Of a stretch of DNA of 33,279 nt, positions 5,726 to 26,912 are shown piece by piece (position 1 is the stretch's first letter; each line of letters opens with the position of its first letter). Under the pieces are notes generated by a model that saw only the letters and a list, made by a program, of their open reading frames with translations, did not search any database and was not told the origin of the DNA. The position numbers and the translations under genes were made by a program. Source of the DNA: an uncultured Verrucomicrobiales bacterium (GTDB taxonomy: Bacteria; Verrucomicrobiota; Verrucomicrobiia; Verrucomicrobiales; DEV007); assembly GCA_913058215.1 (NCBI GenBank), contig CAJXQE010000036.1, positions 1 to 33,279 of the forward strand. Reading direction: 5' to 3'.

Positions 5726-8305
5726 TTACTTAATCTCAATCGAGATCGCTTCGGTCTTGGTGAATTTCTCGCGGGTGTCGCCGGGGCGGACCAGAGAAGC
5801 TGCAAAGCTTTCCCAGGGTTCGATATCCCGTCGTCCTGCCCAACCGGTAAGAAGGATCTTACTGCTGGTAGTGCGAGCGTGAAATTCACGAGGTCCGAAG
5901 GACGGGCCGGTGACCACGACATCACGGATACCGCGAGGCATCACACGGATCAATTGATCGAAAGTCCGGGTGTTGTAGCCGGGCTCAAAACCGTCCAATG
6001 CCCAGGAGGCTTTGTAACGATCACGGTCCTTACGTGGGAGGTTGAAGACAACCTTGTTCAACTTGGCACCCATCCGGACTTCATCCAGGGTAAGTCCTTC
6101 TGCCGGAAGATCCTGGCCGAAGAATCGGTCACTCTTTTCATAGGCGAGTCGTGGAATCCGGAAAGAAATGTGAGCACTGTCGGGAGTACCATCTTTGGGC
6201 GGCTCAGCGACATAGGTGGCATTCATTCCTTTACGACCGATGTATAGATGGACCCGGAATTTGATCTCGTCTTCGAGGACCATTTTCCAGATGATTTCTT
6301 TTCCATCGAAAGTCGGCTCCTCTTCCAATCGAAGGAATTTCCGGGAACGTCCACGGTACGCTTTGTCCGCTTTCATTTTCTCCGGATCGCGCTTCCAACT
6401 GTGGTAGCTGAAGGTGATCGGGTTTTGGATAAAGCCTCCGTTTTCGTCTTTCAGAAAGATTTCAGCTCTGGCACGGGGACCGTAAAAGACGGCTTCAAAC
6501 TCCGGTTCGGAAAGGCGGGTGATTTCCGTCATCGAAGCGGAAGGCTTGAAATGATAGAACTCTTTGCCGACCATTTCGTCACGAACTGATGCGTACTTAA
6601 ACGGAGAATTCTTCATTGGATCCTCCGGCTTGGTCAGCAATATCGGTTTTGGAACATCTTCATCATCACTGAACAGAGAGACCAGAGTAGGCATCTGACG
6701 ACCGCGCGTTTTATTCGCGATCTTGTTGGTCATGATCTTGAGATTGTCGGTCGATTTCTCAGCCGGCTGAACATAGGTCCGAATTTTGCGTCGTCCGAGG
6801 TTCTGTCCGATTTCCGCAGCAAGCTCTTCGTCCACGAAATCCTCAAAGTCAGAGAAAATGTAGAGTGAGTCGATTTTTTGCTCCACAAGGAAATCAATGG
6901 CTGAGGTGATCAAATCTCCGCCTTGACCGCGGGCGGAAAGAAACTGATTGGGACGCTCTTTGAAGGTCTCAATAAGGCGATCGACGTAGCGTTGAGGTGC
7001 TTTCCGGGGGAGATCTCCCCAGAGGAACCAGTATGGGGAGACTACGTTGTCTTCCCAGCGGGGTTTGACTTCCTCGCCGATAATCAGCCTGACGTCCGGA
7101 TCTTTCGTCCGCTTCCGCATCACGACGTCCCGAACATAAACGATGGGAGCGTCTTTGAAGTTTTTGTCCACCTCACGAACAACGTGGGGCAGGTATTCCG
7201 CCATGGAACCGGAGACATCGAGAATCACACCGAGGACGTCACCTTCCATTTTTTGACCAAACATCATTTTAGAATCGCTGGAAGAAGGAACTCCCATGTC
7301 CATTGATGGAGTGAAGTCGAGACCAGTGGCAGCAAAACCAATGTCAGATGTCGTTTCAAATTCGGTATCGGAAACGGCAAAAGCAGACATTGCGTTTGAA
7401 GTCACGATGTTCGACATCGCGGCCGCCGATGAAGAAGCCGTTTGAGTCGGGCGTTTCATCGTTTCCGTCTGAATGTCTTCCGACTGTTCCTCATTCATCG
7501 TCGAGGCGACAATTTGGGGTGGGACATTTGGCGGAATCTTGGTCACGACCAGCATCATGGATGCGATAATCGAGGCATTGATCAGCACTGCGATGGCAAC
7601 CGCATTGAACTTATCGCGTTTGATTCGAGCCAGGTTGATCCGTTTGGACTCTTCCTCCGCCGCGTGAATCCGATCCAGCTCGGCTGCTGCTTCTTCGTCA
7701 AATTCTGCCGCATCGATTTGCTTCACCACTTCCGGCGCAGGGGCCGCCTGGGGAGTGGGATCAGGCCGGGCCTGAAGAAGGTTTGCTGTGGGAACGGCAG
7801 TCACCTTGGACGGATCTGTCGCTTCAACCAAATCCGGTTTCAAGGGAGCAATAGAAGCAACGGGAGCGGATTCAGGATCCGACATTGCCACTGGCATCAC
7901 CGCTTGAGAAGCGGTTGTTGGAGCCGGTGCTGGCGCTGGAGTCTTAGATGCTTCGACGGCTTTTGCGATCGGAATATCTTCCTCCTCCTCTTCTTCAGCG
8001 ACCTCGTCGGCATGGCTGGCGAGTGCTGCGATATACGCTTTGGCATCAACGTTTTCCGGATTGATTTCCAGAACTGAATGACAAATGTCGCGCGCCTGAT
8101 CGGTCGCACCTACCAGAGCATAAGCCCGGGCAGCCTGAACCAGTCCGACATCATCGCCCGGCAGTGACGTTGCACCACTGAGGACTTCGACAGCTTTCTC
8201 ATGATTTTCTTCTTGAAGCCACGTCTCGATGAGAGCCAGACGGGTTTCCCAGTTTTCCGCATCGCTTTCGAGCGATGTCTCTAAGGCTTTGATTATAGCT
8301 GACAC
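5726..8305 (-). CDS. TPR / transmembrane / von Willebrand factor A protein
   Basis: An 859-residue protein starting with GTG at 8305; no in-frame ATG lies nearby upstream. Residues about 1-98 are helical TPR-like repeats. Residues about 100-215 are an acidic and Pro/Ala-rich linker containing six consecutive Glu. A membrane helix lies at about 234-254 (FNAVAIAVLINASIIASMML). A VWA domain starts at about 355 with the metal-site motif DVSGSM (363-368), a conserved Thr region (GGDLITSAIDFL, 462-473) and SDFEDF (485-490). The last 300 residues carry no recognised domain and are rich in charged beta-type sequence. The topology puts the TPR in the cytoplasm and the VWA domain outside. VWA domains bind partner proteins through a divalent metal; the partner is unknown. 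It is monocistronic, with its own terminator. Confidence 0.85.
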   Translation of the reverse strand: MSAIIKALETSLESDAENWETRLALIETWLQEENHEKAVEVLSGATSLPGDDVGLVQAARAYALVGATDQARDICHSVLEINPENVDAKAYIAALASHADEVAEEEEEEDIPIAKAVEASKTPAPAPAPTTASQAVMPVAMSDPESAPVASIAPLKPDLVEATDPSKVTAVPTANLLQARPDPTPQAAPAPEVVKQIDAAEFDEEAAAELDRIHAAEEESKRINLARIKRDKFNAVAIAVLINASIIASMMLVVTKIPPNVPPQIVASTMNEEQSEDIQTETMKRPTQTASSSAAAMSNIVTSNAMSAFAVSDTEFETTSDIGFAATGLDFTPSMDMGVPSSSDSKMMFGQKMEGDVLGVILDVSGSMAEYLPHVVREVDKNFKDAPIVYVRDVVMRKRTKDPDVRLIIGEEVKPRWEDNVVSPYWFLWGDLPRKAPQRYVDRLIETFKERPNQFLSARGQGGDLITSAIDFLVEQKIDSLYIFSDFEDFVDEELAAEIGQNLGRRKIRTYVQPAEKSTDNLKIMTNKIANKTRGRQMPTLVSLFSDDEDVPKPILLTKPEDPMKNSPFKYASVRDEMVGKEFYHFKPSASMTEITRLSEPEFEAVFYGPRARAEIFLKDENGGFIQNPITFSYHSWKRDPEKMKADKAYRGRSRKFLRLEEEPTFDGKEIIWKMVLEDEIKFRVHLYIGRKGMNATYVAEPPKDGTPDSAHISFRIPRLAYEKSDRFFGQDLPAEGLTLDEVRMGAKLNKVVFNLPRKDRDRYKASWALDGFEPGYNTRTFDQLIRVMPRGIRDVVVTGPSFGPREFHARTTSSKILLTGWAGRRDIEPWESFAASLVRPGDTREKFTKTEAISIEIK

Positions 8306-9510: not shown

Positions 9511-9573
9511 GGCTACTTAGGCTTGCGAAATGGTGATCGTGCGGCAAAATGGCCACGCGACAAGCTTGAGCCA

Positions 9574-10539
9574 ATGGCAATCACTTATCTGGAAGCAATC
9601 CGAGAAGCGCAATCAAAGGCGCTGGCAAGTGACGACTCCGTCTACATCTACGGACAGGATGTAGCGGGGTTTGGTGGTGCTTTTAAAGCGACCAGAGGTT
9701 TGGCAGAAAAGTATCCCGGCCGGGTTCTGGATTCTCCGATCTCAGAGGATGCGATGATCGGCTCTGCCATCGGAGCTGCGATCAGCGGGATGCGGCCGAT
9801 TATTGAAATGCAGTTTGCTGACTTTTCTTCAGTCGCTTTCAATCAGATCGTCAATCAGGCGGCGACTCACTATTGGCGGACGGGAGTTCCCTGTCCCATT
9901 ACGGTGCGTCTACCCTCCGGTGGGACAGAAGGGAGCGGGCCTTTCCACAGTCAGAATCTGGAGTCAATCTACTCCCACTATCCCGGCCTGATCGTCATGA
10001 CTCCGGCGACGGTGGAAGATGCGTATTCCATGCTCCTGGAAGCGGTGGCGATTGATGACCCCGTTATTTTCTGTGAGCACAAATTTCTATATTATCATCT
10101 GAAGGCGGACAAACTTCCTGAAGATAATTTACCATTGGGAAAAGCCCGCATCGCCCGGGAGGGAAGGCATGCCACAGTGGTTGCCTACAGCGCAATGGTG
10201 CATGAGGCACTCAAAGCGGCCCGAAAACTTTCTGAAGAGGGGTGGGAACTGGAGGTTGTGGATCTCCGTTCAGCCAAGCCAATCGATACGGATACCATTT
10301 TGGGATCGGTTGCCCGAACCGGCCGGCTTCTTTGTGTCGGTGAAAGTTTCCCCTGGGGTGGACTTTGTGCCGAGGTGGTTTCCCGGGTGGTTTCCGAGGG
10401 GTTTCATTTGCTGGACGCTCCTCCTAAACGTCACAATTCCAGGGACACGCCGATTCCTTATCATCCGAATTTGTGGAAAACTCACCGCCCGACTTGGCAG
10501 AGCATTGCAGATGCTGCGAAAAACCTTCTGCAAATGTAA
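9574..10539 (+). CDS. 2-oxoacid dehydrogenase E1 component, beta subunit (no alpha partner)
   Basis: A 321-residue protein from ATG 9574 (MAITYLEAIREAQ, the usual E1-beta opening); the frame extends to a TTG at 9523 without conservation. Motifs include YGQDVAGFGG, DSPISEDAMIGSAIGAA with Glu58 in the position of the thiamine-diphosphate-activating glutamate, ADFSSVAFNQIVNQAA, the cation-site region GPFHSQ and the transketolase C-terminal domain (ELEVVDLRSAKPID...CVGESFPWGG). Beta subunits of pyruvate, acetoin or branched-chain 2-oxoacid dehydrogenases normally sit next to alpha and E2 genes; neither is here. The length fits a normal beta subunit. It either pairs with an alpha subunit encoded elsewhere or has a specialised role with its neighbours. 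Confidence 0.9.
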   Translation: MAITYLEAIREAQSKALASDDSVYIYGQDVAGFGGAFKATRGLAEKYPGRVLDSPISEDAMIGSAIGAAISGMRPIIEMQFADFSSVAFNQIVNQAATHYWRTGVPCPITVRLPSGGTEGSGPFHSQNLESIYSHYPGLIVMTPATVEDAYSMLLEAVAIDDPVIFCEHKFLYYHLKADKLPEDNLPLGKARIAREGRHATVVAYSAMVHEALKAARKLSEEGWELEVVDLRSAKPIDTDTILGSVARTGRLLCVGESFPWGGLCAEVVSRVVSEGFHLLDAPPKRHNSRDTPIPYHPNLWKTHRPTWQSIADAAKNLLQM

Positions 10540-10615
10540 TCACTCGAAGCCGGTTTTGATGAAAGGCTTGCCACTTCCAATCTCATCGCGTTTGATGAAT
10601 TCAGGCTAATCCGTG

Positions 10616-11662
10616 ATGAAAACAGGTCTCGATATTCTTCCACAAACCGATCCCACTAATATTCTTCGCTACCGCGACGGAATTTACGCGGTGGATCTTC
10701 TCACGGCAGCTATTGCCGAGTTTGATTTTTTTACCTGGCTGCAGGGGAATCCTTCGACCCTGGAGGAAGTGTGCGCACATTTCGGCTGGGCAGAGCGACC
10801 GGCCGATGTGCTGCTGACCCTGATGCGTTGCAATGGTTTTGTAGAGGAGCGAGCTGACGGGAATACGGTCGCAACGCAGTCTGCCCTTGAACATTTGTGC
10901 AGCGATTCTCCCTGGAATCTATCCGGATATTACGAATCGCTCAAAGACCGGCCGGTGGTGAAAGACTTTGTGCGGGTTCTAGCTTCAGGCAAACCAGCCC
11001 ATTGGAGCGGGCACGAAAGCGCTGAAGACGACTGGCATGGCGCAATGTTGCAGGAGGATTTTGCGATTCCATTTACGGAGGCAATGGATTGCCGCGGGGT
11101 TTACCTGGGTAAAAAACTGGCGGACAAGGTGAGTCCCTGGCTTTCAGATACGGAACGGCTTCTTGATGTGGGAGGTGGATCCGGTGTTTACGCCTGTGCG
11201 TTGGCTGCGAATTTTCCCCATCTGAATGCGACGGTTCTGGAGCAGGCACCCGTCGACGGGATTGCCCGGCGCAAGATTGAAGAACGGGGCCTCAGTGCCC
11301 GGGTGAATGTCACAACAGGGGATATGTTTGCCGATTCCTGGCCGTCCGACTGCCCGGTCCATCTTTTTTCCAATGTGATGCATGACTGGGATGTGCCGGT
11401 GGTTCTGAATCTACTCCGTCGTTCTCGTGAGTCGATCGAAAACGGGGGGATTATTTTGATTCATGAGACATTCTTGAATGACGAAAAATCCGGTCCACTG
11501 CCAGTTGCGGAATATTCCTGTATCCTTGCTCATTCGACTCAGGGGCGTTGCTATTCAGTTAAAGAAATGGGCGAATTCATGCAAGGTTCTGGTTTTCAGA
11601 TGGTCAAGCACCTGAAAACAGGCGGAGATCGCTCAGTTATTGTTGGAAAAGCGGTTAATTGA
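10616..11662 (+). CDS. SAM-dependent O-methyltransferase-like protein (Methyltransf_2 type)
   Basis: A 348-residue protein. GTG 10613 and ATG 10616 are adjacent possible starts; I use the ATG. The N-terminal 100 residues form the winged-helix/dimerisation-type domain of hydroxyneurosporene/acetylserotonin O-methyltransferases (NILRYRDGIYAVDLLTAA...TLEEVCAHFGW). The catalytic domain has the SAM motif LLDVGGGSGVYA (182-193), the acidic Glu209 at the end of strand 2, GDMF (235-238), and FSNVMHDWDV (251-260), whose His256 aligns with the general-base His of this family. It is 76 bp downstream of the E1-beta gene on the same strand. The acceptor is unknown. Related proteins act on phenolic, carotenoid or polyketide hydroxyls, so a small-molecule pathway is a reasonable inference. 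Confidence 0.85.
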   Translation: MKTGLDILPQTDPTNILRYRDGIYAVDLLTAAIAEFDFFTWLQGNPSTLEEVCAHFGWAERPADVLLTLMRCNGFVEERADGNTVATQSALEHLCSDSPWNLSGYYESLKDRPVVKDFVRVLASGKPAHWSGHESAEDDWHGAMLQEDFAIPFTEAMDCRGVYLGKKLADKVSPWLSDTERLLDVGGGSGVYACALAANFPHLNATVLEQAPVDGIARRKIEERGLSARVNVTTGDMFADSWPSDCPVHLFSNVMHDWDVPVVLNLLRRSRESIENGGIILIHETFLNDEKSGPLPVAEYSCILAHSTQGRCYSVKEMGEFMQGSGFQMVKHLKTGGDRSVIVGKAVN

Positions 11663-11739: not shown

Positions 11740-13155
11740 ATGACAGAAGAAGAACCGACATTGCTGGTGGAGGACAAAGGTCCCCGCGCCCTAAGCAATC
11801 GGAAGATTGGCTTTATGCAATTCTTCGTAATTGCGGCGGTACTTCTTGGTGTCAATATTCTTGTTTCTCCTTCGGACCTTGGTTGGGGCGAAATCAATCC
11901 GAGTCCCTGGGTGCTCGTTCCCTGCTATTTCGGGTTTCGGTTCGGTTATCGTGGGGGAGTCTTCACAGCGCTGTTTGTGATCACGGTGATTCTGGTGGGC
12001 CATTTTCTCGCCACAGGTTTTGGTCCTCTGGAATACATGGTTGCAGAAGGGGCCTATTTTCTCTGGAGTTTCCTCATGGCCGGGGTAGTCACCGGATTTA
12101 TCAGGAACTTGTATTCGAGAAGAGTAAAGGGCATTCGGAGTAATTTAATCGTAGCCAAAGCGGGCTTGAAAGATTTTGTCGATACCCTGGCGATATATCA
12201 GCAGAACGAGCGTGAACTGAAAGCGGCACTCGTAGGACACGGAATTGAACTGGCGGGAATTGTTGACGGTTTGCAACATTTGTTCAACGCGACTTCTCCG
12301 GAACGGCTTAACGAACGTTTTCTCAATCTGATCGCAACTCATTGCGGAGTGATATCAGCGGGAATATTCGAATTGGAAAAAAAGGGGGCGTTCAAAAAGG
12401 AAGCGGCGGTGAAAGATTCCGAGTCTTTGCCCTCTTTATTGGATCCAAATCAATCGCCCATGTGCCAGGCTGCGGTGGAGTCGAAAAAGATGGTGACTCA
12501 AGCGGGTTTATGGGATCCTCTGGCGATTGGCGTTCCTGATCTTCAGGACGAAGGAATCCTCGCGATCATTCCCAACCGGGATCTGGATGGAAAAGTGACG
12601 CGATTGCTGGTGATTCACCGGATGGAGTTTGATTCGATTTCGTGGGAAGGTTTTTGGCGGATTGAGTCTGCCTTCGGGTGGTTTGAAAATCGATGCCGGG
12701 ATTCTCTGGAACCGGATTTTACCGACATCGGCGTCGAGGACATTCACGGGGCTCGAGTTTTTGCTACCTACCTGACCCAGGCGGCAAAAATGGCGAGGCA
12801 TTTGAAAATGGAATCCAGAGTGATTCTCTTTTCCCCGGATCCGGAGGCTACCGAAGACGAATTGCGTGAATTTGCCGAGGTCCTCGTTCGCTCCAAAGGC
12901 CGCTACGATGCTGCCGGAATCGTGACCGTTGAGGATAATTATATTTTCAGTCTTCTCGTTCCTCTCGGATCGGATGAAACAGCGGAGGACTATGCGTCCA
13001 TGATTCTGCAGAAATTACCTCTTTTGGAGCTGGACTATGGAATCATGGAGATCAGTGAGGAACTCTTCCGGGCACTCGGTTTTTATGATGAGCTGTTTGC
13101 CAACGTCGATATATTCCCTCAAAAAGAGAGGGAGAGCGGGGAAGAAGTGGCATGA
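11740..13155 (+). CDS. pelD: PelD-like membrane protein with GAF and degenerate GGDEF domains
   Basis: A 471-residue protein with four predicted membrane helices (about 24-42, 54-70, 73-92 and 101-121). A short helical linker and a GAF-like domain (about 165-318) follow. The C-terminal domain (about 336-456) follows the GGDEF pattern: the helix ELREFAEVLVRSKGRYD and then strand IVTVEDNYIFSLLVPL, where GGDEF is replaced by VEDNY, so it cannot be a cyclase. This is the architecture of PelD, the c-di-GMP receptor that switches on Pel polymer synthesis (455 residues in Pseudomonas aeruginosa). The following three genes fit pelE-F-G. The I-site is not a clean RxxD: around Asp390 there are Arg384 and Arg388 but Gly387 at the expected Arg position. 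Ligand binding is therefore unproven. Its stop overlaps the next start (ATGA). Confidence 0.72.
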   Translation: MTEEEPTLLVEDKGPRALSNRKIGFMQFFVIAAVLLGVNILVSPSDLGWGEINPSPWVLVPCYFGFRFGYRGGVFTALFVITVILVGHFLATGFGPLEYMVAEGAYFLWSFLMAGVVTGFIRNLYSRRVKGIRSNLIVAKAGLKDFVDTLAIYQQNERELKAALVGHGIELAGIVDGLQHLFNATSPERLNERFLNLIATHCGVISAGIFELEKKGAFKKEAAVKDSESLPSLLDPNQSPMCQAAVESKKMVTQAGLWDPLAIGVPDLQDEGILAIIPNRDLDGKVTRLLVIHRMEFDSISWEGFWRIESAFGWFENRCRDSLEPDFTDIGVEDIHGARVFATYLTQAAKMARHLKMESRVILFSPDPEATEDELREFAEVLVRSKGRYDAAGIVTVEDNYIFSLLVPLGSDETAEDYASMILQKLPLLELDYGIMEISEELFRALGFYDELFANVDIFPQKERESGEEVA

Positions 13156-14150
13156 ATGGAGTGGTGAACAGCATCTTTGTGATCGTCCTCGTTTGCATCG
13201 ATTCAGCGGCTGCGGGGAAACTGATGATCGATGGCTCGGATCACCTGTCGACGTCTCTCATGTTACATATTCTCGTATGTATTGGAGCAGGGCTGAGGGG
13301 GGCTTTGCATCCGGTGAAAGACTCACCGAAATCGTCTCGATCAATGATGGCAGTCAGTTGCGCGTTGACGTGTTGGTTCGCCCCGGTTGTGGGTGTTCTG
13401 GTGACGCTGTTCTATGATCACGCCGAACCCGTTGAAGCGGGTAAGAAGAAAGTAAGGACGCGTGGTAAATACAGGATAGGCAATCCGATTAGCGGAGGTG
13501 GGCAGGCAGTTCCGCTGACAAATTTGTCTGATGCAGGATTGAAACCGGCAAGCAATACTGTTTTCAACGGTGAGCGGATGAGAGGTGAAGAAGGCGTTCG
13601 CGCTGTCATTCGACTCAGAAAGAAAAACAGTCTGCTTATTCTGAGACGGTTTGCAGAACGGTTGCGCGGTCGGACCGGGATGATTGCCCAGGCGGCCTTG
13701 CAGACTCAACTCGAAACAGACAGGCGCCGGATCAGAGACACGGAAAATGTCCTGCAAGGTTTGGAGGGGGAAGTCGATCCGGAATATTATTTGTTGGTAG
13801 CGGAAGGGCAGCGATCTCTCATCGAAAGGGGAATCAGTTCAGCCGCACCGGAACAACACCGGCTGGAAGAAATGGCCAATCATCTCGAAGCAGCGATTCA
13901 ACTCGGACATGGGGATTCTTATGTGGTGAATCGCTACATTGAAGCGCTCATTCGCCTTGAGAATTTTGAAGAGGCCTACCGCGTTGTCATGGAGTGCAGC
14001 GTAATCGACGGCGTACCCGTGAGGCTTCATCTTGCTCGAATCCGGGCCGCGCAGGGGCAATGGTCAGGAATCAACAGTCTGACATCTGACCTTAACAATC
14101 GCGACTGGGGGGAACTCAGCTCCGAGTCCAAAGCTTTTTGGGGATTTTGA
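13152..14150 (+). CDS. pelE: PelE-like membrane/TPR protein
   Basis: A 332-residue protein translationally coupled to pelD by a 4-bp ATGA overlap. Hydrophobic segments at about 4-20, 35-52 and 66-87 are followed by a soluble helical part. Residues about 195-315 read as TPR-like helical pairs (ERGISSAAPEQHRLEEMANHL, YVVNRYIEALIRLENFEEAYRVVMECS, VRLHLARIRAAQGQW). PelE is a membrane-tethered TPR protein of about 329 residues that holds PelD/PelF together at the inner membrane, so length, topology and order all agree. Primary sequence is weakly conserved and I would not name it without the neighbours. It ends 2 bp before the pelF start. Confidence 0.62.
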   Translation: MNGVVNSIFVIVLVCIDSAAAGKLMIDGSDHLSTSLMLHILVCIGAGLRGALHPVKDSPKSSRSMMAVSCALTCWFAPVVGVLVTLFYDHAEPVEAGKKKVRTRGKYRIGNPISGGGQAVPLTNLSDAGLKPASNTVFNGERMRGEEGVRAVIRLRKKNSLLILRRFAERLRGRTGMIAQAALQTQLETDRRRIRDTENVLQGLEGEVDPEYYLLVAEGQRSLIERGISSAAPEQHRLEEMANHLEAAIQLGHGDSYVVNRYIEALIRLENFEEAYRVVMECSVIDGVPVRLHLARIRAAQGQWSGINSLTSDLNNRDWGELSSESKAFWGF

Positions 14151-14152
14151 CG

Positions 14153-15628
14153 ATGGCAGATAAGGAAACCATTGAGAAAATTTGCCTGATCGTGGAACCA
14201 CCGCACTGGACGAGGCGTTCACTGGGGGAGCCGTGGCTGTTCGATGTTATCCAGCGATTTCCGGAAATCCGATTCTCACTGGTGGTGGTTGGCGCAGGAG
14301 ATATTGATGAGGTTTTGCAGTCTGGATATCCTGCAAACGTCGAGTCGGTTCAAGTTGCAAATCTTGATACCGGAACCCACAAGGGGAAAAAGAGCAAAAG
14401 GGTGACCCAAAAGAAATTTGCACGCCTCGTTCAGACCGTTGCGGTCATGGTAGAGAATTCCTCCCTTGGATTGAAGGCGATGCGCGAGACCTTTCTTGAA
14501 ATTTCAAAAGTGGCACCGGACATGCCATTTGAAGAGGCCTGGCGTGATCCTGTCGTCTGGGAATTAATCACCACCGCCTGTGAATTGCACAAGGTCGAGT
14601 TGCCGTTCACCGACTTCTACGAAATCGTTGAGTCTGTAATCAGTCCGATCTGGAATCTGCTGTCCATTGCGGAGGAGGTTTCCGAAGCCGACGTTTACCA
14701 TGGAGTAGGAGGCTCTTATGCTGGATTGCTGAGCGTTATTCTCGCTGAAAAAAACGACAGCCGTTCGGTTTTTACTGACAACCGCAGGGCGCCTGCCAGG
14801 CAGATGTTTCGCTACTTTTCTGAGTACTGGAAAGTTAACGCAGAACTGCAACCAAGGGTATCGCGCCTGATGGATCACGAGCAGCTCTGGATGGAAAAAA
14901 CGTATGCCTTTGTCTGTCATTGTGCAGACCAGGTAGTCTCCGGAAGCAGCCCCGCCGCAAGGTTGATTGCCGAGCGTGCCAAGTTGCGAAAACCGGTGTT
15001 GAGAATCGGAATCGGATCGGACGATGAAAACGCCAGAAGAACCCGGATGATAAGGAGGCATCAAAATGGCAACGAATTTCTCATCGGTGGTGTCTTTGAA
15101 CGGCAAAGTCGTTCTGACGTTGAAATGTTTCTCGCTGCGGCACATTCTGTGGATCAGCAGTTTGAAGGTTGCCGCTTTCATCTCTGGGGAAACTGGAACG
15201 AGGAGGAGAAGGCTCATTTTCTCCAGTTGGCGGAGGAAAGGTCGCCCATCGCCGATGTGAGCTTTTCAAGTATTGAGTCCATTGAAGATAAAATCGGGCA
15301 GATCGATATTGCGGTGATTCCCGGCCAGTGTGAAGTGGGCGATCAATTGCTGGGAATGATGTTCAATGCCCAGATTCCCGTGGTGGCAACTGACGTCGAC
15401 AAATTCAGCGGGATTTTGGAATCGCTGAACTGGGAGGGAAGTCACGACTTTCTCATTCAGACCGGGGCGGGGGATGGAAGTGAAATGGAGGAGGCTCTAT
15501 TGAATCTCCTTTCGAATCACCGCCTCTACGAAGCCGCCGGCCATTCAGCTCGCCGTCATTTGAATCGAAATTTTTATCACGATGATATGATTGCTGATTA
15601 CGGTCGTGTTTATCAGCTTATTCATTAA
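14153..15628 (+). CDS. pelF: Divergent PelF-like glycosyltransferase, probably catalytically impaired
   Basis: A 491-residue protein from ATG 14153 (an extension to TTG 14138 would overlap pelE). The whole-length outline follows PelF: an N-terminal KICLIVE strand, an RFPEIRFSLVVVG segment, then ADVYHGVGGSYAGLLSVILAEK, which matches the PelF ADVYH...YAGLL region, and the GT4 C-terminal domain with IPVVATDV (408-415). Several functional positions are changed. The TEHG segment reads TDNR (208-211) and the IPNGID loop reads RIGIGSD (284-290). The GR...K phosphate-binding site reads GGVFERQ (312-318). In the EX7E motif Glu394 may remain but the second Glu is missing (Gly401/Met402). Canonical PelF polymerises UDP-GlcNAc/GalNAc; this version may be inactive or use another chemistry. 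Length is close to normal (about 507). Confidence 0.7.
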   Translation: MADKETIEKICLIVEPPHWTRRSLGEPWLFDVIQRFPEIRFSLVVVGAGDIDEVLQSGYPANVESVQVANLDTGTHKGKKSKRVTQKKFARLVQTVAVMVENSSLGLKAMRETFLEISKVAPDMPFEEAWRDPVVWELITTACELHKVELPFTDFYEIVESVISPIWNLLSIAEEVSEADVYHGVGGSYAGLLSVILAEKNDSRSVFTDNRRAPARQMFRYFSEYWKVNAELQPRVSRLMDHEQLWMEKTYAFVCHCADQVVSGSSPAARLIAERAKLRKPVLRIGIGSDDENARRTRMIRRHQNGNEFLIGGVFERQSRSDVEMFLAAAHSVDQQFEGCRFHLWGNWNEEEKAHFLQLAEERSPIADVSFSSIESIEDKIGQIDIAVIPGQCEVGDQLLGMMFNAQIPVVATDVDKFSGILESLNWEGSHDFLIQTGAGDGSEMEEALLNLLSNHRLYEAAGHSARRHLNRNFYHDDMIADYGRVYQLIH

Positions 15629-15639
15629 AAGGTGTCGTT

Positions 15640-16989
15640 GTGAATTCCAGGGAAAGAACAGAAATCCTCTATATTGATCCGCGGATAATCCATCGCGGGA
15701 TCTGGCCCGAATTGGGTATTCTGTTAACGTCAGGATGGGTTCTCGCGCTTTGGTTCGGCTATGGGGTTCGACTGGAAAACGAAGTGAACAATGAGTTTTT
15801 CACAGGGACGGTTCTATCACTGGGACTCGCCAATATTATGGTCAGTCTCACGTTCTGGGGGATCATTCATTCTAAAATGGCCACAGTCCGGACCCAGGTG
15901 AGAATCTCGTTGATGCCGATCCTCACCGTAGTGCTTTCTGCGACCTTTCTGTTTGGGAGCATCATTCCGATCATTCGTTACGGAAACGATTTCATGATGT
16001 GGTTCAGCGCCTCGACTTTGACCGCGTCCCATGCTGCGCTGCTGGTGGTTCTTCAGTATTCCGTAGTCGCTTTCGGGGTATTCAGGGGATTCTGGATGAC
16101 CTTTTTCGCAATGGCGCTATCGGTTTCATCCTTGGTCTATTTTGGGCCGGACCTTTCAGTGCCGAGCCACTTTATTATTACTGCAGCTGCTAATTTGTTG
16201 GGAGCCGCTTCCATCGTCTTCGCGATCTGGAGACGCGGAGTATCGGTGAATTCTGGCGTTGCCCGCTTGAAGCAAATTTTCTCAAAGCCCTCCTTTTTCC
16301 TCACGGGATTCCTCACTGTTAGTTCCCTCTGGTATGTGGCACTGATTCACTGGCAGTTCACCGATCACGAGGCCGTATCCGGTGGGATTATTCGTTTTTC
16401 GACCCGGGATGGATCCGTCCTTTTCGGATTTCTAGCCCTTGTTCCCGGTGGATGGCTCACCCACTTATTTCTTCGGAAGCGGTTTCTTTCGAACATGCGG
16501 AAATTCCGCCGGAAAATCGAAGGAGGAAGTTCCCTTTCGGAAATCAGGGAGAAAAAGAGGGATATCTGGAGATCAGTAAAAAGAGGAATCGGCAACCTTA
16601 TTGCGATTCAGGGAATCATCGGGCTTGGGTTAATTTCGGTGATGGGGATGGAAGTGAGAGAAGTTCATGGAGTCATCATTAACGGAGCGCTTTTTGCGGG
16701 AGTGGCAGGAGGCATGGTTTTCGTAGGGCTCCTGCTCTTTGTCGTAAAAGTCCTCATGTCCATGGGCGAAAGCCGAAGTGCACTGACCGCTGTGGTGATC
16801 TTTTTCCTGGGTAATTTGCTTTTCAGCTCCGTGGCGATGCTCATCAAAGAAGAAGCAATCGGACTTGGGACCGGTTTTGCGGCGGCGACTGCCTTTGGTG
16901 TTGGTTTGATTCAGCTCAAGCAGATCATCGGAGATCTGGAGTTCGAAGTCTTTTCCCATCTGCGGGGGCAGACCCTGAAAACGAATTAA
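15640..16989 (+). CDS. pelG: PelG-like polytopic membrane protein
   Basis: A 449-residue, very hydrophobic protein starting with GTG 15640, preceded by AAGGTG as a fair ribosome-binding site. About 11-12 membrane helices are visible, with one larger basic cytoplasmic loop (about 285-315, RKRFLSNMRKFRRKIEGG...EKKRDIWRSVKRG). PelG is a 12-helix MATE/Wzx-like protein of about 456 residues thought to move the nascent Pel polymer across the inner membrane. The N-terminal amphipathic stretch followed by a helix (ELGILLTSGWVLALWFGYG) and the C-terminal LKQIIGDLEFEVFSHL are compatible with the family, but sequence identity must be low. Position as the last gene after D-E-F is the main support. It is separated from pelF by 11 bp. 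Confidence 0.6.
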   Translation: MNSRERTEILYIDPRIIHRGIWPELGILLTSGWVLALWFGYGVRLENEVNNEFFTGTVLSLGLANIMVSLTFWGIIHSKMATVRTQVRISLMPILTVVLSATFLFGSIIPIIRYGNDFMMWFSASTLTASHAALLVVLQYSVVAFGVFRGFWMTFFAMALSVSSLVYFGPDLSVPSHFIITAAANLLGAASIVFAIWRRGVSVNSGVARLKQIFSKPSFFLTGFLTVSSLWYVALIHWQFTDHEAVSGGIIRFSTRDGSVLFGFLALVPGGWLTHLFLRKRFLSNMRKFRRKIEGGSSLSEIREKKRDIWRSVKRGIGNLIAIQGIIGLGLISVMGMEVREVHGVIINGALFAGVAGGMVFVGLLLFVVKVLMSMGESRSALTAVVIFFLGNLLFSSVAMLIKEEAIGLGTGFAAATAFGVGLIQLKQIIGDLEFEVFSHLRGQTLKTN

Positions 16990-17073: not shown

Positions 17074-17150
<77 letters not shown>

Positions 17151-17661: not shown

Positions 17662-18111
17662 TTATTCCGCTTTCTTTTCCTCTGCTTTTTTGAGGACCCA
17701 GCGAAGCTCGGATGAAAGACGCTCGGCGGTGTATGGCTTGGGAAGAATTCCTGCAAATCCGTGTTCAAGGGCGGCGCCGCGTGCATTCTGCTCGAGGTAT
17801 CCGCTACTCACGATGATTTTGGCGCGTCCATCGATCTGCTTGATTGCGATGGTGGCTTCCAATCCGGAGATGCCGCCGGGAAGGGCAAGATCCATCACGA
17901 CTGCAGAGAAAGGCTCGTTGTTTTCGTAGGCTTCTCTGTAGGCTTCGATGGCGTCTTCGCCGCTGCCAACGGTGAATGGTGCGTGTCCCAGGCGGTCGAG
18001 AATCGTATAAGCAAGGGCCTGCATGGCCTGCTCATCGTCTACGACCAGAACGCGATGGTTACTGATACCGCTTTCCTGGGAGTTTTGTGATGTCGTTTCG
18101 GTGGATGTCAT
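17662..18111 (-). CDS. Stand-alone response-regulator receiver domain (CheY-like)
   Basis: A 149-residue protein that is just a receiver domain. It shows the acidic pair in VLVVDDE (Asp25/Asp26), phosphoacceptor Asp74 in VVMDLALPGG, the Ser102/Ser103 switch region in IIVSSGY, and Lys125 in LPKPY. There is no output domain; the C-terminal tail is Lys/Glu-rich. Sequence style (VVMDLALPGGISGLEA...LPKPYTAERLSSELRWVL) resembles receivers from hybrid histidine kinases. It lies 13 bp after the PilB-like ATPase gene and is the last gene of the pilus cluster. A role in phosphorylation-controlled pilus activity, as with PilG/PilH-type regulators, is an inference. No kinase is encoded in the window. Confidence 0.9.
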   Translation of the reverse strand: MTSTETTSQNSQESGISNHRVLVVDDEQAMQALAYTILDRLGHAPFTVGSGEDAIEAYREAYENNEPFSAVVMDLALPGGISGLEATIAIKQIDGRAKIIVSSGYLEQNARGAALEHGFAGILPKPYTAERLSSELRWVLKKAEEKKAE

Positions 18112-18124
18112 TGTTCAACTTTGG

Positions 18125-20296
18125 TTAGAAAGCAGTATAACTAACTTTCTTGATTTCGTCCATTGTGGTATTTCCAGAAAGCACATGGGTTAGTCCTTCC
18201 TGATAAAGAGTCTGGAAACCGCCTTTTAATGCGGCTTTTCTTAATTCTGTCTGAGTTGCCTGGCGTTCAACCATGTCGGACATTTCTGCGCTGATTTCGC
18301 ACATTTCCATGAGCGCAACTCGACCGGTGTATCCGGTTCCCTGGCATTCGAGGCATCCGGTGGCTTTATAAATTGGATCGGTCTCGTTCTGACGCTTGAT
18401 TCCCTGTCTGTAAAAGACTTCAAGAATTTCGTTCGATGGAGCGGCCGGTTTCTTACAGTAGTTACAGAGTCGGCGGACAAGACGCTGAGCCTGCGACATG
18501 GCAAGTGAATCGCCGACAAGATGGGGTTCGACGCCCATTGAAAGGAGCCGCGAAATGGCGCGAAGTGAGTCATTTGCGTGCAAAGTCGTCAAGACAAGGT
18601 GGCCGGTCAGAGCGGCGTTGATGGCCGAATTTGCGGTTTCCTCGTCACGACACTCACCGATCAGAATTACATCGGGGTCAGATCGAAGCAGGGCTCTCAA
18701 TCCATTCCCGAAAGAGAGATCATGAGTCGGGTCTGTCTGAGTCTGGTTGATTCCTTCGATCTCGTATTCGATCGGATCCTCAATCGTGTGAATGTTGATT
18801 CCTTCATCGTTCACGCTGTTGATGAGTGCATAGAGGGTGGTCGTCTTACCGGAACCGGTTGGACCGGTAATCAAGACGAGCCCCTGATCTCGCGACATGA
18901 CCCTTTTGGTGATCATGCTCTGGCGCTTGGAAAAGTTCAGGTCGGCGAGTTTCTTCAAGCCGTCCTGCTTATCCAGAAAACGCATAATGACTTTTTGAAG
19001 ATCGCGGCGGCAGGGGACCGCGGCGACACGAACGTCGACACGGCGTTGGCCGATTGCCATTGCGAAACGTCCATCGAGCGCTTCCTGACGGCTTTGCCCC
19101 ATGTTGGAGTAATTTTTAATGAGCGCGATGAAACGCGGCATCATGTCTTCCGGTGCGGTGTAAACCGTCCGCATTTTACCGTCAATACGAGCGCGGAATC
19201 GGGTCACATTGTAAAATTTCTCGAGGTGCAAATCGGAAGCCCTCGCATTGATGGCTGTGTAGATCACCCAGTGGAGCAATTCCTCTGCGGAGTGATTCAC
19301 ATTTCGAGGGTTCACCTCGGCCATGTCTTCCGGAACAATTTCGACGATGCTGTCGGAGTCAGAAAGACTCAAGGTCGACTCTTCAACATCAATCCCGGTA
19401 TTACCGACTGAGCCCGAACCCGACCTGCTGATAGCGGTCTTGATCGTTTTTTCGTCCGCGAGGACATGAATGAATTCTACAGGCTCATTTCCCTGGGAAA
19501 GCCATTCATCTTCAAAGCTGTAGTTATTGTCTTCGGCCGAAGCGAGATAGATTTTTCTCTCCCCGAGGTAAATGGGGTAGACGACATGCTTTTCAAGAAG
19601 CGGAGTAGGAAAGGTGTCTTGTCGGGCTGCTTCATCGGGATTGAAACACAGCAGGGAAGGGCCTTCCACGATGTATTGCAGGGCCACTCCCAGTCCGGGC
19701 ATGATTTCGTTGAACCCTCTGGTGTCGATATACCCGTTCTTCTCGGTTACTTCGGCTTGAAGCATGCCGATCCGCTCTTTGTCTTTGGGATCGTAGGGGT
19801 AGTTGTCGAGAAGCCAGGTGAAAGCACTTTCGATATTTTTGGATTCCAGCTGTGGTGCAGGAAGGTTTTCCAGAACGTTCTCTTTCGGAAGAGGAGAATG
19901 CGATAGACGCATTACCAGATCCTTCATGATCGCTTCATACTGCGTTTCTGAAATCGCGACGCGGATAGCAAGGCAGGAAGGAACGCCCCACATATCTGAA
20001 CTCTTCGGGGCGTGGTGGCCAAATATGATCGCCGGGCCCAGAGTCGCGACGGGAAGCCACGGGCTTTCGGACTTCGGGAATCGTCCCAGTTTTCTCAGGG
20101 CATTCTCCGCCTCCACCGTGCAATTCTCACGGGGAAGAGTAATGGGAAGAATACCGAACTGGACGGCAACTCCTTCCAGAGACATGAGCCCCATTCCTGC
20201 GGCGTTCGAGCCGAAGGTGGATGCTTCAGGATCTGACGGAGTTCTAGCTCCGCTGGCGGATCCTGTTTGTAATGTGGGGTCTGCAATAGCGCTCAT
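18125..20296 (-). CDS. pilB: Type IV pilus assembly / type II secretion ATPase (PilB/GspE)
   Basis: A 723-residue hexameric ATPase that powers pilin polymerisation at the cytoplasmic base. The long N-terminal region (about 1-330) is divergent, including an unusual acidic/Ser stretch at 305-330. The N2-type domain has ARASDLHLEK (351-360). The ATPase core has Walker A GPTGSGKTT (478-486), the Asp box THTIEDPIEY-type segment HTIEDPIEY, and Walker B VILIGECRDEET (543-554), where the usual GE[ILM]RD has Cys549. The His box is TLHAND. The zinc site of PilB/GspE proteins is intact: Cys611-x2-Cys614 and Cys648-x2-Cys651. In a cluster with pilT it is best named PilB rather than GspE. It is longer than usual (about 560-570), owing to the N-terminal part. 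Confidence 0.93.
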   Translation of the reverse strand: MSAIADPTLQTGSASGARTPSDPEASTFGSNAAGMGLMSLEGVAVQFGILPITLPRENCTVEAENALRKLGRFPKSESPWLPVATLGPAIIFGHHAPKSSDMWGVPSCLAIRVAISETQYEAIMKDLVMRLSHSPLPKENVLENLPAPQLESKNIESAFTWLLDNYPYDPKDKERIGMLQAEVTEKNGYIDTRGFNEIMPGLGVALQYIVEGPSLLCFNPDEAARQDTFPTPLLEKHVVYPIYLGERKIYLASAEDNNYSFEDEWLSQGNEPVEFIHVLADEKTIKTAISRSGSGSVGNTGIDVEESTLSLSDSDSIVEIVPEDMAEVNPRNVNHSAEELLHWVIYTAINARASDLHLEKFYNVTRFRARIDGKMRTVYTAPEDMMPRFIALIKNYSNMGQSRQEALDGRFAMAIGQRRVDVRVAAVPCRRDLQKVIMRFLDKQDGLKKLADLNFSKRQSMITKRVMSRDQGLVLITGPTGSGKTTTLYALINSVNDEGINIHTIEDPIEYEIEGINQTQTDPTHDLSFGNGLRALLRSDPDVILIGECRDEETANSAINAALTGHLVLTTLHANDSLRAISRLLSMGVEPHLVGDSLAMSQAQRLVRRLCNYCKKPAAPSNEILEVFYRQGIKRQNETDPIYKATGCLECQGTGYTGRVALMEMCEISAEMSDMVERQATQTELRKAALKGGFQTLYQEGLTHVLSGNTTMDEIKKVSYTAF

Positions 20297-20347
20297 TCAA
20301 CTGTGTCGGGGGTATCGACGCAGGCTGATGATTTTTAGTTCATCTGC

Positions 20348-20857
20348 CTACCTTGATCCGATGGGGGTAAAATCATCGTCATGGATGTACGGGGATCCAA
20401 GATCTGTTCCTTCAAAATCTACTTTGAGTCCTGCGCCGGCTGTACCGGGAGACAAGACTTTCCAGGCTGATCCGGTCCATTCGATCCGATGTTCTTTCGG
20501 GTCTGAAGAAAGGCTGGGATTCCAGTCGATTCTCATGAAAGGGCCTTTCGGGTTGAGTTCCGACCCGGCATGGGTGGGTTCTCTCCATTGCAATGTTCTT
20601 AACAAGGCCAGTTCATCGGCTGCGTTGTTGGGAATTGCTGTCAGCTTGAGATCCCATTGGGAATGACTAAACTTACGGGTCGCTTTGTTGAGGCCTTGAT
20701 TCACATTGCTGGCCACAACATCTTTGGATTTCCCGAAAACGTCTCCAACAGAAGGAATAGCGATCGCTGAAATGACTCCGATTACGGCAATCGTAATTAT
20801 CATTTCCACGAGCGAAATACCGCGTTCTCTGGAGTTTGACGTAAGGGAGTGCTTCAT
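20348..20857 (-). CDS. Type IV pilin-like / pseudopilin protein
   Basis: A 169-residue pre-pilin from ATG 20857 (a TTG extension to 20881 is less likely). The class III signal is RERG followed by ISLVEMIITIAVIGVISAIA: Gly at -1, Glu at +5, then the hydrophobic stalk helix. The C-terminal domain is soluble and lacks recognised adhesin features. It lies between a similar pseudopilin gene and pilB, 51 bp upstream of the latter. It is probably a minor subunit of the pilus fibre or its initiation complex. Confidence 0.88.
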   Translation of the reverse strand: MKHSLTSNSRERGISLVEMIITIAVIGVISAIAIPSVGDVFGKSKDVVASNVNQGLNKATRKFSHSQWDLKLTAIPNNAADELALLRTLQWREPTHAGSELNPKGPFMRIDWNPSLSSDPKEHRIEWTGSAWKVLSPGTAGAGLKVDFEGTDLGSPYIHDDDFTPIGSR

Positions 20858-20884
20858 GATCTTAAAGTCCGCTGGTTTCAAAAA

Positions 20885-21280
20885 TCAGTAGTCGATTGTT
20901 GTTGCCGGATCGGTCGAAGTATCCTGGAGAATACTTTTCTGAAGGGCATTCAAATTTGTTGGCAAAGTGATTCCATACCCAGCCGGGGAAAACTCGGTGA
21001 GAGTATTGGGAGCGAAGGAAAGGTACGGGATGAGTTCGGTGTAACGTTGATCGTTTGATTTCGAACCCCAGGCTGTTGCTACAGCATCTTTGCCATTTGA
21101 TTGAATGTAGGAGGCCACTGACATGTTCAGTGCTTCGGCCCTGGAAACGGCCAGGTTCCTTTCGGAGTCACGCTTGATCGCAACGATATTAGGAATGGCG
21201 AGGAAGGCGATGATTCCGATGATTCCGACTGCCGCGAGAACTTCGACGAGCGAGAACGCTTTGTTGTTTTTAGTTTTCAT
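20885..21280 (-). CDS. Type IV pilin-like / pseudopilin protein, Ala at -1
   Basis: A 131-residue pre-pilin. The leader MKTKNNKA is very short and precedes FSLVEVLAAVGIIGIIAFLA; the cleavage site has Ala at -1 instead of the usual Gly, with Glu at +5 kept. The rest is a small domain of about 95 residues ending in a polar tail. ATG 21280 is a clear start. It is 27 bp upstream of the next pseudopilin. Confidence 0.87.
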   Translation of the reverse strand: MKTKNNKAFSLVEVLAAVGIIGIIAFLAIPNIVAIKRDSERNLAVSRAEALNMSVASYIQSNGKDAVATAWGSKSNDQRYTELIPYLSFAPNTLTEFSPAGYGITLPTNLNALQKSILQDTSTDPATTIDY

Positions 21281-21321
21281 CAGAGATTACTTTTGGAGGG
21301 CGTTAGGGGGGTAAAAGGGGG

Positions 21322-21756
21322 CTATTTTAATTCCACTTTTGGATAGGAGGTGGAGGCCCATTGACCCATGAGTAAGAATTGTCCTGTTTTATCAAGGGCA
21401 GCGCTCAAAACTGTGTCAGGAACTGCAGCATCCGTATTGGCAACAAAGTGTTCGAGAGTGGAATCGTCGAGATATCCTCCTACAAGTTGGAGGCGGGCGA
21501 GACTGTTACCGGCTGCATTGTAAGCGGTCCTGGAGCCGGAGAGACCGTTGTTCGTGGAATATGAAGTAACCCATGCATTGACGGCGTTCTGAACTGCAGC
21601 TTGTTGCTGCCGGGAAATGACGCGTCGTGTATCCTGAGCGGCATTGGAAAATGCGGCGATAATCAGGGCGGACATAATACCGATGACTGAAATCACGATG
21701 AGAAGTTCGATCATCGTAAAGCCTCGTCGGCTATTGGAGTGAGAGAGGGCGTTCAT
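21322..21756 (-). CDS. Type IV pilin-like / pseudopilin protein
   Basis: A 144-residue pre-pilin from ATG 21756; a TTG at 21771 would add five residues. The leader ends in RRG and is followed by FTMIELLIVISVIGIMSALI: Gly at -1, Glu at +5. The soluble part is rich in Ala, Asn and Ser (QQQAAVQNAVNAWVTSYS...), typical of small pilin subunits. It is the first gene after the hairpin at 21845-21874. Confidence 0.88.
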   Translation of the reverse strand: MNALSHSNSRRGFTMIELLIVISVIGIMSALIIAAFSNAAQDTRRVISRQQQAAVQNAVNAWVTSYSTNNGLSGSRTAYNAAGNSLARLQLVGGYLDDSTLEHFVANTDAAVPDTVLSAALDKTGQFLLMGQWASTSYPKVELK

Positions 21757-21844
21757 ATTCTGTCCAGTCAAAATGGGTAAGAGGGGGAGGACGGAAAAAA
21801 GGGGATTGTCTAAAAGCGGAGTTGAGGGAGAGGGATCCTTGGAG

Positions 21845-21874
21845 TCGGGGCCACCCGGTTAGGAGTGACCCCGA
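21845..21874 (-). other. Hairpin downstream of the probable major pilin gene
   Basis: On the minus strand TCGGGGTCACTC pairs over 12 positions (some G-U) with the complementary GGGTGGCCCCGA, leaving a small loop. It lies 81 bp after the stop codon of the pilin at 21955-22425. No T-run follows, so full termination is unlikely. An mRNA 3'-stabilising or partial-termination element, giving more pilin mRNA than downstream mRNA, is a reasonable inference. Confidence 0.5.
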
Positions 21875-21954
21875 TCACAAAGGTAATTGCGAGTTGGCAG
21901 AGAATCGAACGGCATAGCCGGAGGGTAATCTGCTCTCACAGTTAGGGCTGTTGA

Positions 21955-22425
21955 TTAAGGAGCAACAGCAGCTGGAGCGGCAATGCCTTCCTGACCACCT
22001 GTATAAAGGAGCATCTTGGAAGTAGTGTCGTAGCTAAGGTACTTAGCTGCACCAGTAGCGGTGTCTTTCGCTTCAGTAGCGTCGATTCCGGGAACACCGA
22101 AGTAAGTTCCGTTGAATGGACCGGTTGATTCGATTGTTTTACCAGCTTTGATGGCGTCAATGATGGTATCAACATCTGAATCTGCGTCACCGGCGTCGTT
22201 GCTTCCGTCTGCGAAACCGAAATCCCATCCAGCTGCTTGAGCAGAAGAGTAGATGGAAGCCAGGTTTTGAGCATTACGGCGTTGTTTTGCGTCTTTAGCA
22301 GAGTCGTTGATACGACCGATGTTTGGGACGGCGATTGCTGCAATAATTCCGATAACGGCGATTACGACGAGCATTTCAACAAGACTGAAACCAGCTTGGA
22401 CTGCGTTGTTTTTACTTACTTTCAT
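21955..22425 (-). CDS. Probable major type IV pilin / pseudopilin
   Basis: A 156-residue pre-pilin: leader MKVSKNNAVQAG then FSLVEMLVVIAVIGIIAAIA (Gly -1, Glu +5). It is followed by VPNIGRINDSAKDAKQRRNAQNLASIYSSAQAAGWDF, a helix extension shared with its paralogue at 22981-23406. The C-terminus is a small Gly/Asp/Thr/Ala-rich domain ending in AAPAAVAP. It has its own promoter, a structured leader and a hairpin behind the gene, as expected for the most abundant subunit. That ranking is inference from the regulatory signals, not from the protein itself. Confidence 0.88.
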   Translation of the reverse strand: MKVSKNNAVQAGFSLVEMLVVIAVIGIIAAIAVPNIGRINDSAKDAKQRRNAQNLASIYSSAQAAGWDFGFADGSNDAGDADSDVDTIIDAIKAGKTIESTGPFNGTYFGVPGIDATEAKDTATGAAKYLSYDTTSKMLLYTGGQEGIAAPAAVAP

Positions 22426-22463
22426 ATTAGTCAGTTAGTGTGTTTTTTTTATTTGCTTAGTTG

Positions 22464-22500
22464 TGAGAGGCCGATCCTCATTCACGAGGACCAACTCTCA
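22464..22500 (-). promoter_or_regulatory. 5'-terminal stem-loop in the major pilin mRNA leader
   Basis: On the minus strand TGAGAG (22500-22495) pairs with CTCTCA (22469-22464), and inside it TCCTC pairs with GAGGA around a GTGAAT loop. The predicted transcription start (about 22499-22500) falls exactly at the base of the outer stem. The mRNA would therefore begin with a stem, like the stabilising 5' hairpin of E. coli ompA (established example; application here is inference). Confidence 0.5.
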
Positions 22501-22505
22501 TTGGT

Positions 22506-22534
22506 AGCATAAACAATAATTACCATAATTACAA
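22506..22534 (-). promoter_or_regulatory. Candidate sigma70 promoter of the major pilin unit
   Basis: On the minus strand: TTGTAA (22534-22529), 17-bp AT-rich spacer, TATGCT (22511-22506). It lies 80 bp upstream of the pilin ATG in the only large gap of the pilus cluster. Confidence 0.5.
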
Positions 22535-22834
22535 GTAGATTGTATAAATATTTAATATTTAGATGGGTGTCTCATTCCTGTTGTAGGCGGGCGAAGACCC
22601 CGCGCATTGAGGTTTTTGGTGAGCGAAGTGAGATGCTGACAATACGTCGATCCCTGATTGTCCATGGCTATTGACTGCTACAACTCCCTTTTTATAAGGG
22701 TTTTGATACTATCAAGTGCGATTCATCCTCCATGGCAGATTCTCCATTCAAATGCTGGATGAAGAGTGTCCATCTAAAGAAAAGAACCGCCGATTTGGTC
22801 CTATTCCGTCTTTTTAAGTATCAAAGTAATTATT
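22535..22834. other. Non-coding gap inside the pilus cluster
   Basis: No convincing gene in about 300 bp. The longest minus-strand reading frame with an ATG here is 37 codons (ending near 22553) and has no recognisable features. The left part, up to about 22560, is AT-rich promoter DNA; positions 22580-22640 are GC-rich; a 5-bp hairpin CCCTT/AAGGG followed by TTTT lies near 22687-22705 on the plus strand. The region separates two transcription units. Confidence 0.6.
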
Positions 22835-22853
22835 AAAAAACCGATCTAATCGG
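22835..22853 (-). terminator. Probable terminator of the upstream pilus transcription unit
   Basis: On the minus strand CCGAT (22853-22849) pairs with ATCGG (22845-22841) around a 3-nt loop and is followed by six T (22840-22835) and AATAATT. The stem is short, so strength is moderate. It lies 128 bp after the stop codon of the pilin at 22981-23406. Confidence 0.5.
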
Positions 22854-22980
22854 AAATTACGGAAAATGACATCAATCGGAAGGAGTTGTGTTCGAAGGAT
22901 TGGAACGTGCAGAGACGGTTCGCCTCGGGTTTTCCTCTCTCTATTCGACTTGGCTGGAGCTTTCCAAACAGGCAGGAACT

Positions 22981-23406
22981 CTATTCGTCGAAAATCAGAC
23001 CGCCCAGATCAGCGTCCCAGGCGATGTACTTTGCGGCTCCGACTTTTTCGTCGACCGCCACGGAATTGTTGAGACCGTTGACACCGAAGAAGGTGTCAGC
23101 CATCGGGCCACCGCTTTCAATCGTCGTGCCGGTAATTACGGCCTCAATTATTTCCGGTTCAGAAAGAACTGCGCTTGCGGTGTCTCCATCTTCGTAGGCG
23201 AAGTCATAGCCTGCAGCTTGAGCTGCACTATAGACGGAAAGCAGGTTTTGAGCGTTCCGGCGCTGATTCGCATCCTGAGCGGTTTCCTTAATTCGACTGA
23301 CGGTCGGAATGGCAACGGCTGTGATGACGCCAATTACCGCGATCACCACCAGCATTTCCACGAGACTGAACGCCAACATTCTTTTTTTCAGGGGACGATT
23401 AGTCAT
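22981..23406 (-). CDS. Type IV pilin-like protein, paralogue of the major pilin, Ala at -1
   Basis: A 141-residue pre-pilin from ATG 23406 (a TTG extension to 23436 overlaps the preceding gene's end region). The leader MTNRPLKKRMLA has Ala at -1 before FSLVEMLVVIAVIGVITAVA. The following region (QRRNAQNLLSVYSAAQAAGYDFAYEDGD) is clearly homologous to the pilin at 21955-22425, so the pair arose by duplication. It lies 37 bp after the platform gene pilC, in the same unit, ahead of a terminator-like hairpin. Confidence 0.88.
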   Translation of the reverse strand: MTNRPLKKRMLAFSLVEMLVVIAVIGVITAVAIPTVSRIKETAQDANQRRNAQNLLSVYSAAQAAGYDFAYEDGDTASAVLSEPEIIEAVITGTTIESGGPMADTFFGVNGLNNSVAVDEKVGAAKYIAWDADLGGLIFDE

Positions 23407-23443
23407 AAGGGGGAGATTGAAGTCAAAGGGAATCAAATTGATT

Positions 23444-24667: not shown

Positions 24668-24708
24668 GGCTTCTGGGTGTGTAAAATAAGTTGGGGGAAT
24701 GAAAGTGT

Positions 24709-25158: not shown

Positions 25159-25164
25159 AGGAGC

Positions 25165-26865: not shown

Positions 26866-26912
26866 GTGGATTTCGTTGCCCGGTGGGAGAATCAGAGTCG
26901 AGTGGTCAAAGG

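Follow-up and report, generated by a model that had tools for sequence, protein, structure and literature searches.

A divergent pelDEFG block with a degenerate PelF in the genome of an uncultured Verrucomicrobiales bacterium

Introduction

Pel is known as a polysaccharide system of the biofilm matrix that requires each of its genes. Here we describe a block of four coupled genes resembling pelD, pelE, pelF and pelG that lies in a contig of 33,279 nucleotides (the window) from an uncultured Verrucomicrobiales bacterium. Among the closest known systems is that of Pseudomonas aeruginosa (pelABCDEFG), where PelD, PelE, PelF and PelG form an inner-membrane complex (PMC8461298). The block is like it in its homologues, their order, the coupling of the genes, the GT4-type cytoplasmic protein and the polytopic PelG; it differs in that PelA, PelB and PelC are missing from the genome, as are most donor-site motifs of PelF, the arginines of PelD that bind cyclic di-GMP (c-di-GMP) and the N-terminal motif of PelG.

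Reduced pel loci are known from Gram-positive bacteria, as pelDEA_DAFG and as partial pelFG loci, likewise with a divergent PelD and no outer-membrane parts (PMC7112194, PMC7112168, PMC12345266). Those described in detail retain a PelA deacetylase, and their product is a Pel-like polymer, whereas in the genome studied here PelA is absent throughout and PelF is degenerate. Loci with only pelF and pelG have also been found, and divergent loci may not make a polysaccharide (PMC7112194). Nearer still, in the PelD tree, are the pel operons of the bacterium's own family (G081–G084, G090 and others), and one sister genus also shares the adjoining O-methyltransferase. These ordinary operons keep PelB, PelA and intact PelF motifs, and their PelF and PelG are 40–81% identical among themselves, whereas the module is only about 20% identical to them. 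In the literature searched, coverage of which was incomplete, we came across no description of a pelDEFG block that had been retained while its PelF degenerated.

Results and discussion

Homology of the four proteins

The window corresponds to contig C36 in a 7.67 Mb assembly of 595 contigs (G000). The same divergent module occurs in two Verrucomicrobia metagenome-assembled genomes, G030 and G024, and these three genomes are referred to below as the carriers. Profiles were built from 21–23 ordinary Verrucomicrobiota proteins each, with the carriers excluded and expectation values (E) scaled to 100,000 sequences. Because these canonical-only profiles find each of the four proteins of the window, all four are evidently homologues of Pel inner-membrane proteins, in Pel order: PelD-like with E 1.6e-84 (16 of 19 conserved columns kept), PelE-like with 1.5e-15 (7 of 7), PelF-like with 8.3e-46 and PelG-like with 3.2e-26 (31 of 84). 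The divergent PelDEFG-like block that had been proposed from the letters and translations (the sequence-only reading) is thus real.

The proteins were also compared with the family models of Pfam and NCBIfam. PelG-like scores 94 bits against PF16933 (cut-off 29), matching in the C-terminal half. PelF-like scores 80 bits against DUF3492, the PelF N-terminal domain, and 88.1 bits against NF038011, under the equivalog cut-off of 100, besides matching GT4-type domains, and PelD-like reaches 17 bits against PelD_GGDEF, under the cut-off of 27. Homologues of PelD, PelE, PelF and PelG in a single operon are one feature of a Pel system, and this is the arrangement of the block.

The open reading frame (ORF) calls place a 4-bp overlap between PelD and PelE, a 2-bp gap between PelE and PelF and an 11-bp gap between PelF and PelG; these spacings and the lengths of 471/332/491/449 residues are exactly those given in the sequence-only reading. 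Four coupled, intact and family-homologous frames are far beyond chance, and the probability that a 491-codon frame of this composition stays open by chance is p ~1e-11. A crude hydropathy scan found two strong hydrophobic segments in PelD, two in PelE, none in PelF and ten in PelG. The four transmembrane segments suggested earlier for PelD are thus plausible by homology only, the scan having given two.

Descent of the block

The three carriers form one clade in the PelD, PelE, PelF and PelG trees (support 100/99, 98/97, 100/99 and 95/96), and in the PelD tree this clade is nested among the ordinary operons of the family (support 97/92). The end branch of the window protein measures 1.16 in the PelD tree, against a median of 0.84, and is also near the median for PelE; it measures 6.6 against 0.73 for PelF (about nine times) and 7.1 against 0.47 for PelG (about fifteen times). 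Long branches may attract each other in the PelF and PelG trees; the PelD tree is independent of those branches. By these trees the block evidently goes back to one of the family's ordinary pel operons, which lost pelA and pelB and then changed; it is neither an old separate branch nor a separate exporter family.

G024 carries an ordinary PelDEFG besides the module, with PelA elsewhere in the genome. Upstream of this ordinary operon, a large glycoside hydrolase (MGH1-like/GH63; L011:10603-13866) stands in the place of PelA and PelB, and PelA is on another contig.

Missing pel genes

Models for PelA, PelB and PelC were made from Verrucomicrobiota, and each recovers its target in control genomes. 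Searches with them gave nothing convincing in the window genome or in G030, and the sole PelB match in the window genome was an 82-position match to TPR repeats at 2e-5. Neither PelA nor PelA_DA had a match in the window genome; the positive-control genomes matched strongly. In G024, PelB went undetected. The whole-genome search thus bears out the lack of PelA, PelB and PelC first noted in the window. PelC is undetected also in the ordinary operons of the family, and its absence from the window genome therefore means little. The window genome has a single copy of PelG and no complete pel operon elsewhere, so the refutation by a normal operon that the sequence-only reading had foreseen does not apply.

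PelA is present in 14/14 examined genomes with an intact-motif PelF, and is absent from the window genome, G030 and G078 (a member of a sister genus), in which PelF is degenerate and there is no ordinary copy; these genomes are related, so the events counted are not independent. Another orphan Pel part is found in G037, where a 902-residue open frame (L117:6581-9289) has a PelD-like N-terminus and no adjacent pelE, pelF or pelG.

The PelF donor site and a possible glycan product

Residues R325, K330 and E405 of P. aeruginosa PelF have been proposed to bind the uridine diphosphate (UDP)-sugar (PMC10185581). Every ordinary intact PelF copy examined, and likewise two betaproteobacterial PelF, have R, K, E and E at the positions of R325, K330, E405 and E413 (R324, K329, E404 and E412 in Azonexus). 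The window protein has E, S, E and M, keeping one of the four, and those of G030 and G024 have E, a gap, E and N. The carriers also lack the glycine-rich loop and the EHGIY motif. In the window protein the losses are concentrated in the motifs, where 7 of 40 columns are kept against 34 of 71 outside (p 0.002); the same trend falls short of significance in G030 and G024 (p 0.18 and 0.19), since other parts of their PelF have changed as well. These losses suggest that the PelF-like protein probably no longer transfers sugar.

The changes are in part shared. In all carriers "EVGD" replaces "SEGLP..LE", with V395 G396 D397 in place of GLP; changes of R to E and of E to D are also common to them, and in 11 of the 52 changed conserved columns the new residue is the same. 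Such shared neighbouring changes are what might be expected if the module still made a glycan, PelF having changed its donor or chemistry and PelG passing a product, short or attached to the cell, for which PelA and PelB are unnecessary. The first Glu is kept, the GT-type domains still match, and between G030 and G024 constraint is strongest on PelF and PelG, all of which would fit such an activity. However, the Arg/Lys pair for the donor phosphate, EHGIY, the glycine loop and the second Glu are all altered, and the module has no sugar-modifying or export partner; we therefore think a glycan product unlikely. Of the two roles suggested in the sequence-only reading, a different polymer is accordingly the less likely, the donor motifs being mostly lost in all carriers, and a signalling or export complex is tentatively favoured.

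Two genomes of a sister genus without PelA and PelB show related changes. In G078 (L105:4353-5906) the first Glu of PelF is replaced by Asp and the second by Gly, with losses again concentrated in the motifs (p 0.002), and PelB is missing as well as PelA; G079 (L106:2893-3647) has only a deleted pel remnant. G078 is possibly an intermediate state, and the two genomes may represent stages of the same process.

PelD and c-di-GMP

PelD binds c-di-GMP through R367, D370 and R402 (PMC8461298). In the window protein R367 is replaced by Gly and R402 by Met, and D370 is kept, so that the site (RxxD plus R402) is incomplete. We considered its loss as a mark of a new function and rejected this, since ordinary PelD proteins of the family that accompany an intact PelF are also without the arginines (L100, L104, L097). 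The loss was therefore earlier or repeated and is not diagnostic, and its occurrence in ordinary PelD suggests Pel control that is independent of c-di-GMP. In the PelD-like protein of G030 (L009:1956-3701) the C-terminal domain is preceded by a long Glu/Pro-rich insert, which is shorter in G024 and absent in the window.

Selection and function

All four frames are intact in each of the three carriers. Between G030 and G024, PelF and PelG are 69–70% identical without stops; the differences at codon positions 1/2/3 amount to 0.25/0.14/0.65 (PelF) and 0.28/0.15/0.62 (PelG), a pattern indicating that these copies are under strong purifying selection. PelD and PelE are less constrained in this pair; PelF and PelG are the most protected, though furthest from Pel. 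The constraint on PelF and PelG, together with the ordinary operon that coexists in G024, argues that the module does something other than ordinary Pel synthesis.

Against this stands the view that the block is a slowly decaying, functionless relic of a lost pel operon. The loss of PelA and PelB and the rarity of the module in the genus would agree with it, as would the deleted remnant in G079 and the motif-concentrated losses in G078. It is hard to reconcile with four frames that have stayed open in three genomes, with the strong purifying selection and saturated third positions between G030 and G024, with the retention of nearly all conserved columns in PelD and PelE, or with the coexisting operon in G024; the frameshifted relatives that would mark a decayed copy were not found in G030 or G024. 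We reject it as the principal explanation and regard it as improbable.

On balance we lean towards the block being a retained, non-polymerising membrane complex, derived from Pel and put to another use. On this reading an ordinary pel operon lost its genes for processing and export (pelA, pelB), and its inner-membrane half was kept. PelD and PelE, the least changed relative to their ordinary relatives, would still form a platform in the membrane to which the PelF-like and PelG-like proteins bind, by analogy with P. aeruginosa, where PelD, PelE and PelG recruit PelF, and the four proteins presumably still assemble. In the cytoplasm the PelF-like protein may now serve as a subunit that is non-catalytic or acts differently, and the PelG-like protein may carry or channel some other substrate, so that the complex could act as a sensing or transport unit independent of c-di-GMP. 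A more specific version, which we put forward tentatively, is that PelD, PelE and PelG with a pseudo-glycosyltransferase form such a unit, equipped with the new EVGD motifs and working beside ordinary Pel in at least one species.

Several observations weigh against a retained complex with a new role. The module is present in 3/34 genomes of the genus and absent from 31/34, and is hence dispensable; the known carriers number only three, and two of these stand close together. In the case of the window, the evidence of function is limited to intact frames, the selection being seen in the G030/G024 pair, and no partner gene hints at the new function. E405, the proposed UDP-sugar-binding Glu, is kept in the carriers, and the importance of the second Glu differs among GT4 enzymes. 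The window loop, in an uncertain part of the alignment, also carries an Arg at one residue's distance from each of the two lost basic residues, Arg and Lys, and the inactivity of PelF is therefore a prediction. Finally, structure models made from three sequences were poor, with a predicted local distance difference test score (pLDDT) of 51.5 for PelF-like and 43.3 for PelG-like.

A Foldseek search with this low-confidence PelF model returned many GT-B enzymes, weakly supporting the assignment, and also receptor entries, possibly fusion constructs, with a TM-score of about 0.2. The GT-B matches included VldE, a pseudo-glycosyltransferase that also combines a GT-B fold with altered chemistry; as this likeness comes from the low-confidence model, it should not be read as showing a shared reaction. 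The PelF profile matched only protein A fusion constructs among the sequences of solved structures.

If a retained complex is correct, the Pel inner-membrane complex can have an independent life after degeneration of its synthase, and the block is a natural test of the roles of PelD, PelE and PelG apart from polymer synthesis. It would also mean that "Pel production" can be a wrong annotation for pelDEFG matches in metagenomes.

Genomic location and distribution

The features of the block and its site are listed in Table 1.

Table 1. Genes of the pelDEFG-like block in the window and landmarks of its site
Feature	Position	Strand	Description
E1-beta/transketolase-like core gene	9523..10539	+	Positional landmark outside the module; in 24/24 good genus genomes
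O-methyltransferase	10613..11662	+	Landmark; PF00891; orthologue beside complete pel operons of sister genus
PelD-like	11740..13155	+	471 residues; N-terminal membrane part, GAF-like region and degenerate GGDEF-like region; lacks the c-di-GMP arginines
PelE-like	13152..14150	+	332 residues; two hydrophobic segments, then TPR-like region; weak TPR_19 match
PelF-like	14153..15628	+	491 residues, ATG at 14153; GT-B/GT4-type, degenerate donor site; probable pseudo-glycosyltransferase
PelG-like	15640..16989	+	449 residues; polytopic membrane protein without N-terminal MAGIGF motif
tRNA-Met(CAT)	17074..17150	+	Right edge of site; core to genus

In most of the block-free genus members examined, a Gfo/Idh dehydrogenase, E1-beta, the O-methyltransferase and tRNA-Met follow in this order, with 76–129 bases between the last two, and in the window the block occupies exactly this gap. 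The tRNA gene had been taken to close the operon; its presence in block-free relatives shows that it bounds the site and lies outside the module. As a core neighbour in the genus that follows the O-methyltransferase in these relatives, tRNA-Met was rejected both as an integration target and as an operon component. A functional link to E1-beta or the O-methyltransferase was not supported either, both genes being common in genus members that do not have the module.

In one sister genus, PelB-D-E-F-G operons (G081–G083) lie near the orthologue of the window's O-methyltransferase, which is 62–65% identical to the pel-adjacent gene in L099, L100 and L104. This pel-linked gene, the synteny of the site and a G+C content of the module resembling that of neighbouring genes together indicate that the locus has long been resident and is not a recent import, although some transfer within the genus may have occurred. 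The competing history has the module arriving independently, by transfer downstream of E1-beta, in the window lineage and in G030 and G024. It would account for the patchy distribution, for the different placement (after the O-methyltransferase in the window, directly downstream of E1-beta in G030 and G024) and for protein identities of only 20–28% between the window and the other carriers when E1-beta is 82% identical. The single clade in all four trees, the matching G+C and the linkage of the O-methyltransferase to pel in the sister genus speak for descent instead, and independent transfer seems to us rather doubtful.

The survey of Verrucomicrobiota for the four-gene block, which the sequence-only reading had proposed, yielded G030 and G024 as two further carriers. 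No fourth was found among 75 family genomes, 384 class genomes (searched for PelD) or 388 phylum genomes (searched for PelF); the sampling is incomplete, and the true number of carriers may be higher. A named genome collection, searched with narrow patterns, matched only in G030 and G024, and plasmid records contained only ordinary PelF.

Elsewhere in the window, an 859-residue TPR protein (5726-8305, minus strand) and a GNAT acetyltransferase (4725-5537, plus strand) lie between genes that are adjacent elsewhere in the genus. Positions 17662-27857 hold a conserved cluster encoding a GspE/PilB-like ATPase with response-regulator-like and pilin-like proteins; several genus members have it in synteny.

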